Shown in pieces: positions 1-9,264 of a DNA stretch of 64,000 nucleotides; position 1 is the first letter of the stretch, and each line of letters starts with the position of its first letter. The stretch spans positions 1 to 64,000 of the forward strand of contig RIBJ01000033.1 in NCBI GenBank assembly GCA_003762715.1. The letters run 5' to 3'. Under the pieces are notes generated by a model that searched no databases, was not told where the DNA came from, and saw only the letters and a program-made list of their open reading frames with translations. Made by a program: the position numbers and the translations under genes. Source of the stretch: Muribaculaceae bacterium Isolate-104 (HZI) (GTDB lineage: Bacteria > Bacteroidota > Bacteroidia > Bacteroidales > Muribaculaceae).

Positions 1-156
1 ATACCACTTATTTTATTGAAAATCAGAGAAATGAATGCGAAAATCACCCTTTCCCATTCAGACTTCCCCCGCTATAAAATAACAGGCTTTTCGGAAGCAC
101 AAGACTTTTTTAAATGAAAGAGCCGTGCGGCATCGGCAAGAAGGGCGAGCCGGAGG

Positions 157-187
157 TTTGACAGCTCACCAAAAATCACTAACTTTG
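157..187 (+). promoter_or_regulatory. Bacteroidota-type promoter of a candidate small RNA
   Basis: TTTG at 157-160 and TAACTTTG at 180-187 are separated by exactly 19 bp, matching the -33/-7 pattern of Bacteroidota housekeeping promoters. The nearest start codon is 460 bp downstream, beyond a strong terminator, so the promoter most likely drives a non-coding transcript. Confidence 0.75.
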
Positions 188-192
188 CAGTG

Positions 193-412
193 TTAAAATA
201 GCAAAGACCGCGGTTGTAGAGTCAATCGCTTCAAATTTATAGGATAACATAACTTCCGCATAAGTTCTATTGTAAATCTGGACAATTTATAAGAACGAGC
301 TTGGCGTGATGCTTATGCTATGCTTACCGCATAGCGTGCATACACGGCTAAATCGTTCAAGGCAGTCCAGAGCCATCAATAGAGTTAGCGTGAATTGCAC
401 GCTATTTTTTTT
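193..412 (+). ncRNA. Candidate structured small RNA of the integrative element
   Basis: This is a roughly 220-nt unit between a full promoter (157-187) and an intrinsic terminator (386-412), with no convincing open reading frame. A perfect 7-bp hairpin (GCTATGC, loop TTACC, GCATAGC, 317-335) sits inside a longer interrupted stem that starts near CGTG at 305. A second weaker stem (GTTCT.../...AAGAAC) covers about 265-297. The 5' end is inferred as about six bases after the -7 box. The family is not recognised. A regulatory RNA of the mobile element, or a leader with premature termination, are both possible. Confidence 0.5.
386..412 (+). terminator. Intrinsic terminator
   Basis: A perfect 7-bp stem (TAGCGTG / CACGCTA) with a 5-nt loop is followed directly by eight T residues. 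It closes the candidate RNA and separates it from the gene at 651. Confidence 0.8.
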
Positions 413-650: not shown

Positions 651-872
651 ATGGAAACAAAAAATCCACCCAATGCCACCGACTTCGTAAAGAAGTCATC
701 CACAAGAAACAAAAAACGTTCATTCAAGCGTAAGTTCGACAGAAAGCAAGCATGTTCCGCTCCTGTGTGCGATGACAATGCTGAGAATATCGACTGGTTT
801 GTAGGTTGCCTCATGTTCTTATTTTTGAGCGTGGCACTCAGAGAGATGTTCAGCACCACAGACGCGGAATGA
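651..872 (+). CDS. Small hypothetical protein with a C-terminal membrane segment
   Basis: This 73-residue protein is unrecognised. Residues 1-35 are strongly basic (KKSSTRNKKRSFKRK) and carry a few Cys. Residues 49-63 are hydrophobic (WFVGCLMFLFLSVAL), suggesting one membrane segment with a positive cytoplasmic tail. It lies four bases upstream of an HTH gene in the same direction, so the two probably share a transcript. The basic N-terminus could also bind nucleic acid. The 230 bp between the terminator at 412 and this gene show only short AT-rich inverted repeats. Confidence 0.5.
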   Translation: METKNPPNATDFVKKSSTRNKKRSFKRKFDRKQACSAPVCDDNAENIDWFVGCLMFLFLSVALREMFSTTDAE

Positions 873-876
873 CATT

Positions 877-1239
877 ATGGGCAACGTAACATCCACCGAA
901 GCGGATTTCAAGACCGCTGTGATTGCAGGCATGGCTCTCGCCGGCATCAGAACTCACAATGACGACATTCGCGCATCTCCCGAATTATTTTACCACGGTA
1001 AGCGTATCATATCCCTTGATGATGTGACATTAGGGTTGCACATCTCCAAAAAGACAATGCGCAAATACCGTGACGAGGGAAAGATTGAGATCCACGAAAG
1101 TCTGACCTGCGGGGCGGCATTCGTGACACAGGAAGCCTTCAATGATTTCATAGACAATCACTTCATCAGCTCCCGGCATCCGGACTATCCCAAGATGAAG
1201 AAAAAACATAACAACACCGGTGGAAACACCGATAAATAA
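877..1239 (+). CDS. Helix-turn-helix (excisionase-like) protein
   Basis: This 120-residue protein has a winged-HTH core of the excisionase/HTH_17 kind at about residues 45-95: an entry strand (RIISLDDVTLGLHIS), a recognition helix (SKKTMRKYRDEGKI) and a beta wing ending in ...FVTQEAFNDFI. Such proteins on Bacteroidales integrative elements act as directionality factors or local regulators, so a DNA-binding role is inferred. Two further HTH proteins of related design occur at 4649 and 4935. The C-terminal tail is Lys/Asn-rich and probably unstructured. Confidence 0.6.
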   Translation: MGNVTSTEADFKTAVIAGMALAGIRTHNDDIRASPELFYHGKRIISLDDVTLGLHISKKTMRKYRDEGKIEIHESLTCGAAFVTQEAFNDFIDNHFISSRHPDYPKMKKKHNNTGGNTDK

Positions 1240-1264
1240 TCACCGCTAAATCTTTAATTCACTC

Positions 1265-2686
1265 ATGGAAGAAAATCCAAAGGAAGAAGTGCTGATTGCC
1301 CGCGACAATGAAACCGGGCAGGTAGGCGCGGTCGTCGGTCAGAACCCCGACGGTACCCCAAAAATGGCCGATGTAAAATCGACCCCGTTAAGCGAACTCA
1401 TCAAGTTCACCAAAGGGCAAAACCCCATCGAGGCATTCATCGCCAACTTCATGCGTCAGGCGAAGAACCCGACCACCTTCGGCATATTCAAGATGTCGGC
1501 CGCCGACTACGAGGCTCTGAGTCAGCCTATGGCGGAAATGCTCAACGACCCAGAAACCAACAGGGAGATGCTTGACAAATACCGTGTCAAGATGAAGGCT
1601 CCCGCCGCAAAAATCAAACCGGTTGACCCCGACAAGGTGAACTGGGCGGAGATAGAAAAACAATGGGGCATCAGCCGGGAGGATCTTGAAAAGTCAGGCG
1701 CGCTCCAACAGATGGTTTACCATCACAAGTCGCCGGAACTACATAAAGTCAACGACCCCGACGGAAGCGGCGAAAAGCTGGACGCACGTCTGTCATTCCG
1801 CACCAATCCCGACGGCACATATTCGCTCACGCCCCATTTCGTCAGGAAAGAACCGTTGTTTGACCAGCCATTCCGGGGCTACACATTCACCACCGAGGAC
1901 AAGGTGGAGTTATCCAACACGGGCAATCTCGGCAAAGCCGTTGACCTCAAAGACCCCGCGACGGGAGAGGTACACAAATGCCTCGTGAGCATAGACCGCC
2001 TCACAAACGAGATCGAGAGCATACCTGTCGATAAAATCTTTATCAAACAGAAGGTTGCCAATATAAATCTGACAATGCAGCAGATAGGCATACTCAAAAA
2101 CGGCGGTCTTATCAAGGAACAGCACGTCGAACTCCCCAACGGACAGAAATTCACCGCCGACCTGCAATACAACGCATCCAAGCGTGACATCGCCTTTGTC
2201 AACTCGGCTCAGTACCGTCAGCAGAACGAGCAGGAGGCACAGCAGGCACAGCAGAACCGGCAACAGGGCGAGCAACAATCCGGGCAAAGCCTCAAAGACA
2301 ACTGGCATGACGCCAACGGCAACCCCAAGCGTCTGACTCAGTGGTACCATATCCCGCTCGACGAGCAGAAACAGGCAGACTACCTCGCCGGGAAGCAGGT
2401 GCTTGTCGGTGAGGGCAAGGACAGGAGTGGCAACGACTGCACCATATACCTGCAATATGACCCCAAAGAGCGAAAGCCTCAGACCACCCGCGTATATCCC
2501 GACCGCGACAAGGTGGTGGGCATCGCCGAGGAAAGCAAAACACAGATGGCGGTAAACGATGACGGCAAGACCAACGAGGCGACCAAGAACGTGAATGAAC
2601 CGCTCCAGCGCGGACAGACACAGCCTAAGGACGAGGCGCAGCAGAAAAAGCAGCACCAGCCCAAGCCCAAGACTCCAAAGCCGTAG
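1265..2686 (+). CDS. DUF3945/DUF4099-type mobile-element protein
   Basis: This 473-residue soluble protein resembles the DUF4099/DUF3945 proteins common on Bacteroidales conjugative and integrative elements. The N-terminal half holds the acidic segment WAEIEKQWGISREDLEKSG (about 126-144), typical of the DUF4099 part. Repeated DUF3945-like units follow (KVANINLTMQQIGILKNGG near 263, and a second after 347 with WYHIPLDEQKQADYLAGK). A Gln-rich linker (about 320-345) and a Lys/Pro/Gln-rich tail look disordered. The molecular function of the family is unknown to me. It precedes the topoisomerase-like gene in the same direction, and the pair is a common arrangement on such elements. Confidence 0.75.
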   Translation: MEENPKEEVLIARDNETGQVGAVVGQNPDGTPKMADVKSTPLSELIKFTKGQNPIEAFIANFMRQAKNPTTFGIFKMSAADYEALSQPMAEMLNDPETNREMLDKYRVKMKAPAAKIKPVDPDKVNWAEIEKQWGISREDLEKSGALQQMVYHHKSPELHKVNDPDGSGEKLDARLSFRTNPDGTYSLTPHFVRKEPLFDQPFRGYTFTTEDKVELSNTGNLGKAVDLKDPATGEVHKCLVSIDRLTNEIESIPVDKIFIKQKVANINLTMQQIGILKNGGLIKEQHVELPNGQKFTADLQYNASKRDIAFVNSAQYRQQNEQEAQQAQQNRQQGEQQSGQSLKDNWHDANGNPKRLTQWYHIPLDEQKQADYLAGKQVLVGEGKDRSGNDCTIYLQYDPKERKPQTTRVYPDRDKVVGIAEESKTQMAVNDDGKTNEATKNVNEPLQRGQTQPKDEAQQKKQHQPKPKTPKP

Positions 2687-2907
2687 CCGCCTCACCACTT
2701 CATCCGTTATCCACAGTCAAAACGACTGCGATTCGCTGACACGTCTGCCGGAACATAGATCCGACCACTGAATCCATAAATCCACTGCGACAAATATCCC
2801 GCCTCCGGCAACCTGTCAATATCCTGACAAGTATCTTCACGACATGGGGAGGTGCGCGCGGCCTCCCCGTGTTTTCAAAACATTCACCAACTAAACCCAC
2901 AAAAATT

Positions 2908-4443
2908 ATGACACAACTGATTGTATGCGAAAAATACCGCATAGCCATAGCCGTCGCCAAAGCGTTGAAGGCGACACTTAACCCGGCATACGGGGTATAT
3001 ACCAACGGCGACATCACCGTCGCCTACGTTCACCGAGGCTTCATCAAGCCTGTCAGTCTTGACAAGGCTGCTAACGGCTGTCTGCCATTCGTGCCGGAGA
3101 AATTCAAGATCGCCGTCACCGACAAGAAACGTGACCGCGTACTCAAACCGCTGTTCCGCAATGCGAAAGAGGTTGTCTTTGCCTCAGACGAGGGAGCCGA
3201 CGCACAGGCGCGTTTCTTCAACATCTGCCGTCACTTCCGTGTCGGGCATCCGACGAGCCGAATGTGGCTTCCCCGCATTACCCGTGCATCTATCCGGCGT
3301 TCATTCTCCAAGCGAGAGAAGGGCCGTCACCTGCACAATCTCGCCCAGTCAGGTCTTGTGGCAGGCGCGATGGACATGATGTTTGAATATAATTTCGCCG
3401 GGGTTCTCAAACGCTGGTATTACGAAGGCGAGCCGCTGACACGCAAGGAGGTCGTAGCCATGCAGTATCTCGGTGACATGGATGAACAGGCGGCTCAATA
3501 TGACGCCCAGCCGAAGGCGTACAGAATCTTCCTCGATTACGGAGGGCTGCACCTCGTTTCTGATCAGTCTTGGCAGAGCGAGAGGGTCTGCGCCGCAATC
3601 GTTGACACCATCCCTGTCGGCGAACCCGTCAAGGCGCGGATGACCGTCACGGAGGAAGATGCGCCGGCAGTCAGACTCCACACGATGCTCACTCTCCAGA
3701 TGGACGCATTCGACAATTTCGGCTTTATGCCGTCACTCACCGTCAGGACTGCGGAGAAGCTCTACGAGCAGGGCTTTATCTCATCGCCATACGTTACTGC
3801 ACCGGACGCCGGCAACGGCATAACCGTGTTGCGCCGACTGTCCAAACGCGCCACAAAGACCGAGCGCAGCCTGTACAGACTTATTGCAGGGCGCATGGAA
3901 GTGGCGGCAATGCCATCGGAAAAGAAACAGTATGCCACTGTGACGGCTGAAATCACCGGACTGACATTCACCTGCCGATGGGAGGTGAGAAAGCCGAAGC
4001 CCGAATACCCCGGCACATCGGAACAGACAATCACCATAGTCGAAAAGATGATGGCTCCGGTCAAAGAGGTATCGCCCATTTCATACAGCTTTGTTCCGAC
4101 ACTTGCCAACCTCACCGGATATGCGACGCTGACCGCAGACACTACGCACCCCGATATGCCTTACTGCCACACCGTACACCAATACGGCACGGCACTCGAA
4201 GGTCTTATGCGCAAGGGCTTCATCACGATAGAGGACAGCACTATCGCTTGCACGCCAGAAGGCGACCGTCTGCTGCTTGACCTCGCTCCCTACAATCTTG
4301 CCCACAGCATACTGGTGGGGCAATACGGAGCTGACGAGATACCCTACGGCACAATAACAGGCAGAAAAGCCGTCAAGGGCTTCGGCGAATGGCTCACCGA
4401 TACTGTCACCGACATTCTGCGCTACATACCCAAAAACGAATGA
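2908..4443 (+). CDS. Degenerate type IA topoisomerase homologue
   Basis: This 511-residue protein follows the TopB/topoisomerase III layout. It has a Toprim start (LIVCEKYRIAIAVAKAL, first Glu at residue 8), a segment equivalent to 'AtDadREGE' near 92-101, an R-x-W-L-P-R-I-T motif, then the core around RTAEKLYEQGFISS. Key residues are missing. The Toprim acidic motif reads SDEGADAQ, without the REGE sequence. The active-site segment reads GFISSPYV at 289-296, where the family has G-(F/L)-I-(T/S)-Y-P-R-T, so Ser293 occupies the catalytic Tyr position by ungapped alignment. It is also shorter than usual TopB (about 600-700). ATG 2908 is chosen over the upstream ATG at 2869 because homology starts there. 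It may be a non-catalytic DNA-binding relative. Confidence 0.7.
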   Translation: MTQLIVCEKYRIAIAVAKALKATLNPAYGVYTNGDITVAYVHRGFIKPVSLDKAANGCLPFVPEKFKIAVTDKKRDRVLKPLFRNAKEVVFASDEGADAQARFFNICRHFRVGHPTSRMWLPRITRASIRRSFSKREKGRHLHNLAQSGLVAGAMDMMFEYNFAGVLKRWYYEGEPLTRKEVVAMQYLGDMDEQAAQYDAQPKAYRIFLDYGGLHLVSDQSWQSERVCAAIVDTIPVGEPVKARMTVTEEDAPAVRLHTMLTLQMDAFDNFGFMPSLTVRTAEKLYEQGFISSPYVTAPDAGNGITVLRRLSKRATKTERSLYRLIAGRMEVAAMPSEKKQYATVTAEITGLTFTCRWEVRKPKPEYPGTSEQTITIVEKMMAPVKEVSPISYSFVPTLANLTGYATLTADTTHPDMPYCHTVHQYGTALEGLMRKGFITIEDSTIACTPEGDRLLLDLAPYNLAHSILVGQYGADEIPYGTITGRKAVKGFGEWLTDTVTDILRYIPKNE

Positions 4444-4520
4444 CCGCCACGACAGCGATAATTTATATCGTGATTGAAAAATAGCCGCTTGACCATAGCG
4501 CATAATCCGATAAAAATCGC

Positions 4521-4607
4521 TAACTTTGCCACTGAATCGCAGTCATAATTTATTTTGATTGTGGATTTAGTGGTGAGAAGGCGGGAGGGATACCCGCCTT
4601 CTTTTTT
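4521..4607 (+). ncRNA. Possible short leader or small RNA ending in an attenuator-like terminator
   Basis: A TAACTTTG -7 box (4521-4528) is followed after about 50 bases by a strong intrinsic terminator (4577-4607). The next start codon is at 4649. A matching -33 box is not seen at 19-21 bp, so the promoter is weaker evidence than the one at 157. The element is either a transcript of about 75 nt or a terminated leader controlling the HTH pair at 4649-5225. Confidence 0.35.
4577..4607 (+). terminator. Strong intrinsic terminator upstream of HTH genes
   Basis: A perfect 9-bp GC-rich stem (GAAGGCGGG / CCCGCCTTC) with a 7-nt loop is followed by TTTTTT. It may end transcription from the topoisomerase-like gene or from the local -7 box at 4521. 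Confidence 0.8.
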
Positions 4608-4648
4608 CAAACACATATCCCATCCACCACTTAATCCACCAATAATTT

Positions 4649-4957
4649 ATGCCAGAGTTTGTTCAAATCGAAAAATCCGAACTTGAAGAAATATTCAGCC
4701 GAATGTCATATTTGAAGAAAGTATTTATCACTTTCTTCGAGCGCGTAAGAAACAAAGAGCCTGATGATTGGCTTACGTTGCAGGAACTCTGTGAGTTGCT
4801 ACATATCTCCGAGTCCAAAGCGCGCTCACTCAAAAAGAGCGGACGTATAGGGTTCATCAAGAGCGGAAAAGGGTCTATGTTCCTCGCCGGAGATGCTTTC
4901 GGATTACTTGAACGGGTAGAGGCTGTACCGAGAAATGGGAACAATATATACCCGTGA
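4649..4957 (+). CDS. HTH_17 excisionase-like protein
   Basis: This 102-residue protein has an N-terminal amphipathic helix followed by an HTH_17/excisionase-type winged helix at about residues 40-90 (DDWLTLQELCELLHIS, then ESKARSLKKSGRIGFIKSGKGSMFLAGDAF). Small proteins like this next to an integrase usually bend DNA during excision or regulate the excision operon; that role is inferred. It overlaps the next gene by 23 bp, indicating translational coupling. Confidence 0.7.
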   Translation: MPEFVQIEKSELEEIFSRMSYLKKVFITFFERVRNKEPDDWLTLQELCELLHISESKARSLKKSGRIGFIKSGKGSMFLAGDAFGLLERVEAVPRNGNNIYP

Positions 4958-5225
4958 CAGCAATGAAATAGGGAATTTCCATGCCGACAGTCTTACAGTG
5001 CTTGAAATCGTTGAGAGATTGAATACTGAAATACATCCGTCGTTCTTGGGTAAAAAGTTTTATACCGATGCCCAACTCTCGGAAAAGCTCAACATTTCAA
5101 GACGCACATTGCAGGAATACCGAGATAACAGGCAGATAGCCTATTACAGGCTTGACGGCAAGATACTCTATGCAGATGATGATGTGGAGGAGTTTTTGAA
5201 ATCCACATACCGCCCCAAATACTGA
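4935..5225 (+). CDS. Second HTH excisionase-like protein
   Basis: This 96-residue protein has an HTH at about residues 43-85 (FYTDAQLSEKLNISRRTLQEYRD, then NRQIAYYRLDGKILYADDDVEEFL). The fold matches its upstream neighbour, but the sequences are clearly different, so this is a pair of related DNA-binding proteins rather than a recent duplication. It is convergent with the integrase across a shared terminator. Likely roles are recombination directionality factor or regulator of the integrase region. Confidence 0.7.
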   Translation: MGTIYTRDSNEIGNFHADSLTVLEIVERLNTEIHPSFLGKKFYTDAQLSEKLNISRRTLQEYRDNRQIAYYRLDGKILYADDDVEEFLKSTYRPKY

Positions 5226-5290: not shown

Positions 5291-6523
5291 TTATACCACC
5301 TGCACATTGTTGAATTTGCTGCGCATGGTTGCCATACCATCATACACGGCTTGATCCTGCATCTTGGCGTATATTTGCGTTGTCTTTATGTCGCTGTGTC
5401 CGAGCATCTTGGATATTACCTCGATGGACACGTTGTTGCAGAGCGACATAGAGGCGAATGTATGGCGCGCCACATGGGTTGTCAGATGCTTTTTGATTTT
5501 CGCCAAATCTGCAATCTCTTTCAGATAGGCGTTCATCTTCTGGTTGGTAATCACCGGCATGACTACTCCCGTAGCCTTCACAACAGGATGATCCGAATAC
5601 TTTTTGATGAGCTGGCGGGGTATGTCAAGCATCGGGATTATACACATTTCTCCTGTCTTGGCACGGGCCTTGCGTATCCAAGTATTGCCTTTGTCATCGT
5701 CTTGTATGTCGTCAATGGTGAGTGATTTCATGTCGCAAAAGGCAAGTCCGGAGAAGCAGCAGAACACGAAGGTGTCACGCACTACTTCCAATCGTGGCAA
5801 CTCCTTCAGGTCAAGATCCATAATGGTCTTTATTTCAGCCTCGGTCAAGAACTGACGCTCACTATATGTACGCTGGTATTTCTTGCCGATAAACGGGTCG
5901 TGGTCTATCCACTTGTGGGCGAGAGCATACTGCAACACGTTTTTTACGCAGCGGAGATAACGCACGGCAGCGTTGTTGGCGCAGGATTTCTTCATGCGAA
6001 GGAAATGCTCGAAGTCGTCAAGCATCCCCGATGTAACCTCCTTTATCGGAATGTCGTCGGTCTTGTAGTGGAGTTTGAAGAAGTCTTCCAGATAGTCAAC
6101 GCAACGAGTCCAGCGCTGATAGGTGGGCTTCACGATGTCTCCACGGTCAAGTTCCTCCTTGCGTTTCTCGTTTGCCTCGCGGAACACCTCGCACATCATT
6201 TTGGGCTTCTCCATAGTTCCCATGTAATGCGCTTTAAGGACAGCCGGATTTACCAGCTTGTTCTCACGGATGAGCATGTTGTGAATTTCGCAGAAACGGG
6301 CGCGCACCATCTCAAGAAATTTGTTCAGCTCCTTGTCGCGGCGCGATGTGCCATCGCTCTGGTTGCGTTTCTGGTTCCAGTGTTTAGGGTTCACTGAACG
6401 ACCGATTGTAAACTCCGTCATCTGGCCTCCGACCGAGATACGGGCGTAGAGCGGATATTCGCTCTTTTCTGTCTTTGGCTTCCTTGCGTAGAAAGTCAGA
6501 GTAAAATAAGAATCTGGTGTCAT
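5291..6523 (-). CDS. Tyrosine recombinase (integrase)
   Basis: This 410-residue site-specific recombinase has an N-terminal arm-binding region (about 1-100), a SAM-like core-binding domain (about 105-205) and a catalytic domain (about 220-400). Catalytic residues seen are Lys289 in RAKTG, His350 and Arg353 in HVAR, His376 in LGHSD and nucleophile Tyr385. The first Arg of the usual pentad is absent: the motif reads SGLAFCD with Ala261. The same loss is known in the Bacteroides CTnDOT integrase group, so activity is still expected. Its start faces a repeat-rich region and the 3' end of tRNA-Lys 0.5 kb away, the usual layout for an element inserted in a tRNA gene. Confidence 0.92.
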   Translation of the reverse strand: MTPDSYFTLTFYARKPKTEKSEYPLYARISVGGQMTEFTIGRSVNPKHWNQKRNQSDGTSRRDKELNKFLEMVRARFCEIHNMLIRENKLVNPAVLKAHYMGTMEKPKMMCEVFREANEKRKEELDRGDIVKPTYQRWTRCVDYLEDFFKLHYKTDDIPIKEVTSGMLDDFEHFLRMKKSCANNAAVRYLRCVKNVLQYALAHKWIDHDPFIGKKYQRTYSERQFLTEAEIKTIMDLDLKELPRLEVVRDTFVFCCFSGLAFCDMKSLTIDDIQDDDKGNTWIRKARAKTGEMCIIPMLDIPRQLIKKYSDHPVVKATGVVMPVITNQKMNAYLKEIADLAKIKKHLTTHVARHTFASMSLCNNVSIEVISKMLGHSDIKTTQIYAKMQDQAVYDGMATMRSKFNNVQVV

Positions 6524-6644
6524 TTCTCTGTGGGTTTAATGGTTATATAAATATAATCATTTTCGCCGACATCACCAAACGAGAAAGAACATCAAATATC
6601 ACGGATATGACTGATTGGACGGCTCACGCCTGTATTCCACCAAA

Positions 6645-6665
6645 ACCGTGAGTCCGGCTCACGGT
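6645..6665. repeat. Perfect inverted repeat, likely recombination or regulator site
   Basis: ACCGTGAG and CTCACGGT are 8-bp perfect arms around TCCGG. It lies about 120 bp upstream of the integrase start and shares the GTGAG/CTCAC core with the repeats at 6863-6937 and with the tRNA T-stem. Confidence 0.7.
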
Positions 6666-6770
6666 GCAAAATGGTGCAAATCGCAGAAATCGGCTTCAAA
6701 CAGCGTTTTGAGCGGGGATTTATGGTTAAAGAATATTTCAAGAGTTAAATAGTGTTTAGAAGCTCTGAAA

Positions 6771-6781
6771 ATTGCGACCCC
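6771..6781. repeat. Imperfect copy of the tRNA 3'-end sequence
   Basis: ATTGCGACCCC repeats ATTGTGACCCC at the tRNA-Lys 3' end (7033-7043) with one mismatch, in the same orientation. It could be an att remnant from an earlier or tandem insertion, but 11 bp is short and chance cannot be excluded. Confidence 0.3.
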
Positions 6782-6862
6782 AACCGGGTCAAAGGTTCGT
6801 TCCCATACTCAAAACCCCACTTTGTGAGGCGTGATAACGGCTTAACTTTCGGTGTTTCAGCC

Positions 6863-6937
6863 GACTCACTGATGATTTCTGCCAACCGTGAGTCGAATTA
6901 CTCACAAACGTGAGTACTCACTAATGACTCACTCACC
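6863..6937. repeat. Cluster of GTGAGT/ACTCAC repeats (putative arm-type sites)
   Basis: In 75 bp there are at least six copies in both orientations: GACTCAC 6863-6869, GTGAGTC 6888-6894, ACTCAC 6900-6905, a perfect 12-bp palindrome GTGAGTACTCAC 6910-6921, and GACTCAC 6926-6932 with a further TCACC. The density and the position between integrase and attachment site suggest binding sites for the integrase or its accessory HTH proteins (inference). Confidence 0.65.
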
Positions 6938-6979
6938 ACCTCTGTATTCTGCGCCATTCTGAAATTTTGGCAAAAATAA

Positions 6980-7012
6980 AAAGCACTGAAAATCAAGCGA
7001 TTTCAGTGCTTT
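6980..7012 (-). terminator. Intrinsic terminator downstream of tRNA-Lys
   Basis: The perfect 12-bp stem AAAGCACTGAAA / TTTCAGTGCTTT has a 9-nt loop. Read on the minus strand it is followed by a T-rich tract (TTTTTATTTTTG). It lies 25 bp past the tRNA 3' end, so it ends the tRNA transcript; if the element begins at the tRNA end, the terminator was brought in by the element. Confidence 0.75.
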
Positions 7013-7036
7013 ACGGCGTTTTGCCATTTTTGATTG

Positions 7037-7109
7037 TGACCCCGGTGAGGCTCGAACTCACGACCCAATGATTAAGAGTCATTTGCTCTACCAACTGAGC
7101 TACGGAGTC
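7037..7109 (-). tRNA. tRNA-Lys (anticodon CUU)
   Basis: On the minus strand the 73-nt sequence has the acceptor stem GACTCCG / CGGGGTC with discriminator A, a D-arm (AGCTCAGTTGGTAGAGC), an anticodon stem-loop AATGA-CTCTTAA-TCATT giving anticodon CUU, and a T-arm GTGAGTTCGAGCCTCAC. The CCA end is not encoded. Its 3' end faces the integrase, so it is the likely attachment site of the element to the left. Confidence 0.95.
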
Positions 7110-8277: not shown

Positions 8278-9264
8278 TTATTTACCGGTTTCGTAATCGT
8301 CGGGCAACTCAAAGCCGTTGCGCTCAAACATTGTATAGTCCTGGTCGATGTTGTTGCCTATTGTTGTTAGCATATCTCCGACAAGCGCTCCGTTCATGCC
8401 GCCTCTGAGGATTCTTTCAGTAGCGGCAGCAGACAGGCGCGAGCGGCCACCGGCAAAACGCAACGTGCAGTCAGGTGCTACAAATTTCATCAACGCCACG
8501 GTGCGCACTATTTCTTCTTCGCCGATAAGCTCCTGATTTTCAAGCGGGGTGCCTTTAATAGGCTGAAGTATATTCACCGGAATGGATGCCGCTCCGGCTT
8601 CTCTTGCCTCCTGCGCCAGTTCGAGACGCTGCGCCAGTGTCTCGCCCATTCCGATTATTCCTCCGCAGCACACTTCCATGCCCACCTCGACAGCCGCTTT
8701 TATTGTTCGCAGCTTGTCCTCATGAGTATGAGTTGTACATAGTTCCGGAAAATAACTTGCCGATGTTTCCAGATTGCAATGGTAGCGTTTCACTCCGGAG
8801 TCTCTGAGCTTAATCAGTTCTTCCTTGCCCAACAGTCCCATAGAAGCGCACAGGTAAATGCCTGACTCGCCGGCTGCTTTTTTGTATAGGTCGCAGAAAC
8901 GGTCAATCTGCGCGGCTGTAACACGGCGACCGCTCGTAACCATGGAAAAGCGCTTGACTCCCCGGCGGCTATTTGCATGAACGGCGTTCATCAGCTCTTT
9001 TTCAGATATTATGTCGTACTCCTGTATGCCTGTTTTATGACGGGCACTCTGCGCGCACCATTTGCAGTCCTCCGGACAACGCCCTGAACGGGCATTGACA
9101 ATAGAACATGTATCTATTTCGTTTCCGCACCTTGCCGCGCGCACTTCATCGGCGGCATCGCAAAGTTCGTCCACGGTATATTTGTCGTTAAGAGCAAGCG
9201 CCTCTTCTACTGTCGCCGCAATGCCCTGCAGCGCACGCGCCTTTACTTCTTCCAGCAATCGCAT
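8278..9264 (-). CDS. bioB: Biotin synthase
   Basis: This 328-residue radical-SAM enzyme inserts sulfur into dethiobiotin, the last step of biotin synthesis. The CxxxCxxC motif binding the SAM-cleaving 4Fe-4S cluster is Cys63, Cys67 and Cys70 (SGRCPEDCKWC). The second cluster environment (YHCNLET, EVCCGGIIGMGE, RFAGGRS) is present, and the length is normal. It is convergent with the HypE-like remnant, three bases away, and no other biotin gene is in the window. A TAAATTTG -7 box lies at 9293-9300 on the minus strand. Confidence 0.95.
   Translation of the reverse strand: MRLLEEVKARALQGIAATVEEALALNDKYTVDELCDAADEVRAARCGNEIDTCSIVNARSGRCPEDCKWCAQSARHKTGIQEYDIISEKELMNAVHANSRRGVKRFSMVTSGRRVTAAQIDRFCDLYKKAAGESGIYLCASMGLLGKEELIKLRDSGVKRYHCNLETSASYFPELCTTHTHEDKLRTIKAAVEVGMEVCCGGIIGMGETLAQRLELAQEAREAGAASIPVNILQPIKGTPLENQELIGEEEIVRTVALMKFVAPDCTLRFAGGRSRLSAAATERILRGGMNGALVGDMLTTIGNNIDQDYTMFERNGFELPDDYETGK

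Follow-up and report, generated by a model that had tools for sequence, protein, structure and literature searches.

For tetracycline resistance in gut Bacteroidales, the model carriers are the CTnDOT-type elements. In CTnDOT, RteR is encoded close to the end of the excision operon. RteR has been described as a 90-nt trans-encoded small RNA that acts on the tra operon (PMC7366714). Here, we analyzed a 64,000-nt stretch of DNA (the window) from Muribaculaceae bacterium Isolate-104 (HZI), in which another RNA carried by the same type of element occupies positions 157 to 412. Unlike RteR, this RNA is about 220 nt long including its promoter-proximal part and, in CTnDOT-type elements, lies between rteB and rteC. 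Identity with RteR, or a second strong copy of the present RNA in CTnDOT-type elements, is ruled out by the locus, by the size, and by the presence of a single strong copy in each CTnDOT-type record.

The RNA resembles riboswitches and attenuators that join a pseudoknotted sensing domain to an intrinsic-terminator platform, as it likewise has a folded leader domain, a competing terminator helix with a U-run, and a position ahead of genes. It departs from known riboswitches in that its downstream genes are unusually diverse and no Rfam riboswitch model matches it; none of the Rfam 15 covariance models gave a match at the gathering threshold over the window RNA or the scanned relatives. The DUF805 and DUF805b RNAs (RF03081 and RF02914) are also leader RNAs of Bacteroidota but form a separate, shorter motif with no overlap with the core described here; one or the other motif lies directly 3′ of the distant copies L090, L096, L099, and L103. 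Going by their main-text passages, the structured 5′ elements of Flavobacterium psychrophilum (PMC9723704) and the candidates from human microbiomes (PMC8040213) both include Bacteroidota, and some items in these lists may be copies of the present family; the same passages describe no such fold. The main texts of the published papers searched likewise held no description of it, and the family may already be listed elsewhere under an uninformative name.

The RNA locus has the following features (window positions):
157..187, + strand: predicted promoter TTTG-N19-TAACTTTG, from the sequence; close homologues keep the −7 box
210..229, + strand: 5′ hairpin of the GCGGTTG/CAATCGC type, from the fold, with compensatory changes in close homologues
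267..382, + strand: conserved core, from covariation and the swap test (see below)
267-272/377-382, + strand: core stem P0, from covariation
278-283/365-370, + strand: core pseudoknot, from covariation
about 292-358, + strand: long core hairpin P2/P3, from covariation and the swap test
317..335, + strand: 7-bp inner hairpin within P3 (GCTATGC 317-323, GCATAGC 329-335), from the sequence and the fold
330..405, + strand: alternative terminator helix, 330-354 with 381-405, reaching the T-run (−24.1 kcal/mol in the window), from covariation in 170 copies and close homologues
361-363/372-374, + strand: core helix P4, from covariation
386..412, + strand: local 7-bp terminator (TAGCGTG 386-392, CACGCTA 398-404) followed by T8 at 405-412, from the sequence

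In the promoter, TTTG (157-160), a 19-nt spacer, and TAACTTTG (180-187) match the Bacteroidota −33/−7 consensus; the −33 box also overlaps an rteB 3′ end (129-161) at its stop codon. The terminator at 386-412 was also recovered by a pattern scan. All the parts named in the original prediction (promoter, structured gene-free stretch of about 220 nt, 7-bp inner hairpin, and 7-bp terminator with eight Ts) are thus present at 157-412. The predicted fold of 187-412 has an energy of −73.5 kcal/mol, versus −50.8 ± 3.8 kcal/mol in shuffled sequences (z = −5.95), and none of 200 shuffles equaled it; the opposite strand folds less significantly (z = −3.77). Judged from its sequence and that of its relatives, the RNA is real and strongly conserved, beyond what chance would give.

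Covariation indicates that the core of the RNA is a pseudoknot. Compensatory changes in homologues, on which the original prediction had been staked, are plentiful: among close copies, 16 of the 32 predicted pairs had both partners substituted in one or more sequences. When the structure was written out for this close group, 95.8% of cells could pair, and the covariation score was 0.403, compared with 0.138 in shuffled and at most 0.087 in slid versions. For 59 diverse copies, the corresponding values were 94.4% and 0.478 (0.176 shuffled; at most 0.111 slid). Because the pattern used to collect 49 of these 59 copies predefines most of the pseudoknot as well as part of P4, the close group provides the main test of both these helices; the pattern placed no constraint on P0, P3, or the alternative helix. 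At five of the six P0 positions, all four Watson-Crick pair types were seen, and the pseudoknot CUGGUA/UACCAG is maintained through the variants CUGGA/UCCAG and CUGCA/UGCAG.

The pseudoknot is surrounded by four coupled positions; of 135 pattern-found copies, 89 have AUAU there and 41 have UAUA, which suggests two subclasses of the RNA. The window itself has U-A-A-A at these positions (277, 285, 364, and 371), a rare mixed type.

G-U pairs outnumber A-C pairs (108 versus 22), which identifies the + strand as the functional one. The locus could in principle be a DNA element, such as an origin or a site of recombination or protein binding, with inverted repeats that merely resemble RNA structure. 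While the inverted repeats and the link with integrative elements would suit such an element, the promoter, the U-run, and the G-U excess all agree on one strand, pairing is preserved despite sequence change, and most copies are leaders of many kinds of genes. We therefore give this explanation next to no credence.

The 3′ strand of P2/P3 has two possible partners: its own 5′ strand or the segment ahead of the U-run. In a swap test across 170 copies, the design of which removes shared ancestry only in part, the mean helix strengths calculated with the energy model were −25.6 kcal/mol for own-strand pairing and −25.5 kcal/mol for pairing with the pre-U-run segment, and exchanging partners between copies weakened the helices to −16.5 and −17.2 kcal/mol, respectively. 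By this calculation, both mutually exclusive helices covary. In 166 of the 170 copies, no more than 3 nt separate the end of the alternative helix from the T-run. A segment in the first ~50 nt past the T-run can also pair with the 3′ strand of the terminator in about 45% of copies, such as L091 (CAGTCCC/GGGACTG); when this candidate third partner was put through the swap test, some copies gave a moderate signal.

The local 7-bp hairpin was considered as the conserved terminator of the family and rejected, since hairpins of this kind are strong in a few groups only. Strong local hairpins before the T-run occur only in the group of the window and CTnDOT and in part of the RibD group; in 117 pattern-found copies, local hairpins at this place were no better than in shuffled sequences, and most distant family members lack one. 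In a model without the pseudoknot, the window RNA reached −59.5 kcal/mol with the core fold and local hairpin together and −46.9 kcal/mol with the alternative helix, so that both states may terminate there.

The family extends far beyond the window. Copies of the RNA were found by DNA search in many Muribaculaceae genomes as well as in CTnDOT-type records (tetQ-rteA-rteB) from Bacteroides, Parabacteroides, and Phocaeicola. The order in these records is rteB, the RNA, a gene of the DHFR family (RibD_C), and rteC; for most close copies, the gene immediately 5′ ends like an RteB-type regulator. A first covariance model, built from 25 core sequences, matched 84 of 392 Bacteroidales genomes, with up to 4 copies per genome, and a second model found matches in 64 of 392 genomes from Bacteroidota as a whole. 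The core sequence pattern was present in at least 118 stretches of genome contigs, nearly all from Bacteroidota with a few from metagenome-assembled genomes labeled Fibrobacter or Lentisphaerae, and in 17 stretches of viral contigs. At one locus (L071), two oppositely oriented copies (5069-5214, + strand, and 8766-8912, − strand) lie about 3.5 kb apart.

The RNA belongs to a large, Bacteroidota-wide, and apparently unnamed family that stands ahead of genes for mobile elements, nutrient uptake, and defense in bacteria of the gut and the environment. The wider genome and contig searches rule out a family limited to integrative elements, and as far as the neighboring genes show, most copies lie outside such elements. 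The original prediction of an unreported RNA regulator of integrative elements holds for a structured, element-borne RNA with its own promoter and terminator that is missing from Rfam, but the phylum-wide spread and the mostly non-element neighbors make "small RNA" and "integrative elements" too narrow as descriptions.

We investigated the position of the copies relative to genes. Of 164 copies, 135 have a TAnnTTTG box 44 to 142 nt 5′ of the core (versus 20 control windows), and these boxes cluster at two preferred distances from the core. The downstream open reading frame (ORF) shares the strand of the RNA in 108 of 126 copies. In 79 of 159 copies, an ORF starts within 70 nt past the T-run, and in none of these does the gap hold a TAnnTTTG box; in CTnDOT-type records, the RibD_C gene begins ~26 nt beyond the T-run. 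The structure, its covariation, the two pairings, the promoter motif, and the position ahead of genes are all supported by the sequences compared.

A free-standing RNA of about 220 nt that acts in trans on messages of the element or the host, with the adjacent gene incidental, is an unlikely account of the family, because copies directly precede same-strand genes that have no further promoter motif and because the conserved pairing is a terminator switch, not an unpaired seed. In its favor, the window and CTnDOT group combine their own promoter with a strong local terminator, the stable state of the window RNA includes that terminator, and the nearest ORF in the window is 238 nt distant; possibly, it is for this group that action in trans is most plausible.

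The genes behind the RNA are varied. TonB-receptor plug proteins are the first gene in 17 of 103 copies, and other first genes encode response regulators, RibD_C proteins, secreted proteins, sigma factors, methylases, PvuRts1I-type nucleases, and RteC. A divergent HTH_3 gene upstream is common (24 of 52). Defense-type genes follow the copies L259 (PDC-M15 pair/WYL), L261 (KAP NTPase/WYL), and L098 (a type IIG restriction-modification enzyme).

Downstream operons that are this diverse, some of them long, along with a strongly conserved fold and conserved letters in the pseudoknot core, would also be expected of a processive antitermination or elongation-factor loading RNA (put- or EAR-like), which would bind polymerase or a NusG-type factor through its fold and so allow read-through of long acquired operons. 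Such an RNA has no need of the dedicated terminator that lies just after the core and covaries with a core strand, and no factor gene is consistently found next to the RNA; we consider this account improbable, somewhat more so than action in trans. A leader-peptide attenuator is ruled out, as the leader has no conserved short reading frame: no shared leader peptide was found across the copies, and a peptide start MLMLC is confined to the close group, where the sequences diverge within a few residues.

Together, the phylum-wide spread, the unrelated genes lacking a second promoter motif, and the conserved switch point to a leader acting in cis, and we regard a transcription attenuator or riboswitch-like leader as the probable identity of the family. 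The copies combine a covarying structured domain, mutually exclusive terminator and antiterminator pairings (by sequence and in the energy model), and, for the family at large, a 5′ leader position. Against it, the state of the window RNA that keeps the local terminator is the more stable one, the first ORF in the window is 238 nt off rather than adjacent, and such heterogeneous downstream genes are unusual for a single metabolite riboswitch.

We infer that termination is regulated, and in the following direction. Polymerase would initiate at the promoter (157-187) and produce the leader, the core of which would form a pseudoknot closed by P0, P2/P3, and P4. With the core fold intact, the 3′ strand of P2/P3 would be occupied and polymerase would pass; with the core absent or unstabilized, this strand and the pre-U-run segment would form the long terminator helix. 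A putative factor (a small molecule, protein, or RNA) would bias the choice of fold and thereby set the output of the downstream operon. In CTnDOT-type elements, the regulated genes would be the RibD/DHFR-like gene and rteC; in the element of the window, they would be the HTH/DUF3945/topoisomerase/Xis genes, and the leader would stand at the head of an excision-type operon. As the local terminator of the window and CTnDOT copies is compatible with the core fold, these copies probably terminate often, releasing an RNA of ~220 nt. For the window copy, the folding model likewise makes frequent termination probable and a terminated transcript of ~220 nt likely; an additional role in trans is possible.

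More tentatively, and with somewhat less than an even chance in our estimate, the family may be an orphan, phylum-wide riboswitch class in which one pseudoknot senses a common cellular signal and activates operons that are unrelated to each other and in many cases horizontally acquired (those for mobile-element control, TonB receptors, and restriction and other defense genes). The A-U-A-U and U-A-U-A subtypes might then correspond to two ligands. If the switch is real, an RNA between rteB and rteC would add an unstudied control point to the excision cascade, and a multicopy pseudoknot leader with a covarying terminator switch would rank with the more widespread regulatory RNAs of Bacteroidota. 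If the signal is shared, why uptake, defense, and transfer genes have one leader becomes testable.

The surroundings of the RNA in the window comprise the following:
129..161, + strand: 3′ end of an rteB-type response-regulator gene (GIGKKGEPEV-stop), its C terminus identical to intact genes in loci L002 and L003
651..872, + strand: 73-amino-acid ORF, the first 3′ of the RNA (238 nt away)
877..1239, + strand: HTH protein, downstream of the RNA
1265..2686, + strand: DUF4099/DUF3945 protein, downstream of the RNA
2869..4443, + strand: topoisomerase, downstream of the RNA
4649..4957 and 4935..5225, + strand: two HTH_17 Xis-like proteins, downstream of the RNA
5291..6523, − strand: integrase, downstream of the Xis-like genes
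7036..7109, − strand: tRNA-Lys, near the integrase

The genes from 651 to 5225 would form one operon that can be reached by read-through from the RNA promoter. There is no TAnnTTTG box between positions 188 and 650; other such boxes lie at 820 and 4521, from which the later genes could be served. It had been argued that the promoter cannot serve the gene at 651 without passing the terminator. The terminator is indeed there, but under regulated attenuation this barrier would be the controlled step itself. The integrase close to tRNA-Lys (5291-7109) marks a probable attachment site and element end.

The window begins at a contig end. Positions 1-122 are an exact repeat found in five places in the genome, and the contig starts compared agree up to base 127; the repeat (1-127) is probably the end of an insertion sequence. 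It truncates the rteB-type gene about ten codons ahead of its stop, and the remainder of such a gene was found at the start of contig C25. On contig C7, the same repeat sits just 5′ of the promoter of another RNA copy. With the second covariance model, seven places in the source genome matched the family, and in this genome, copies stand ahead of two gene groups that each include a WYL regulator, one with a PDC-M15 pair and the other with a KAP NTPase.
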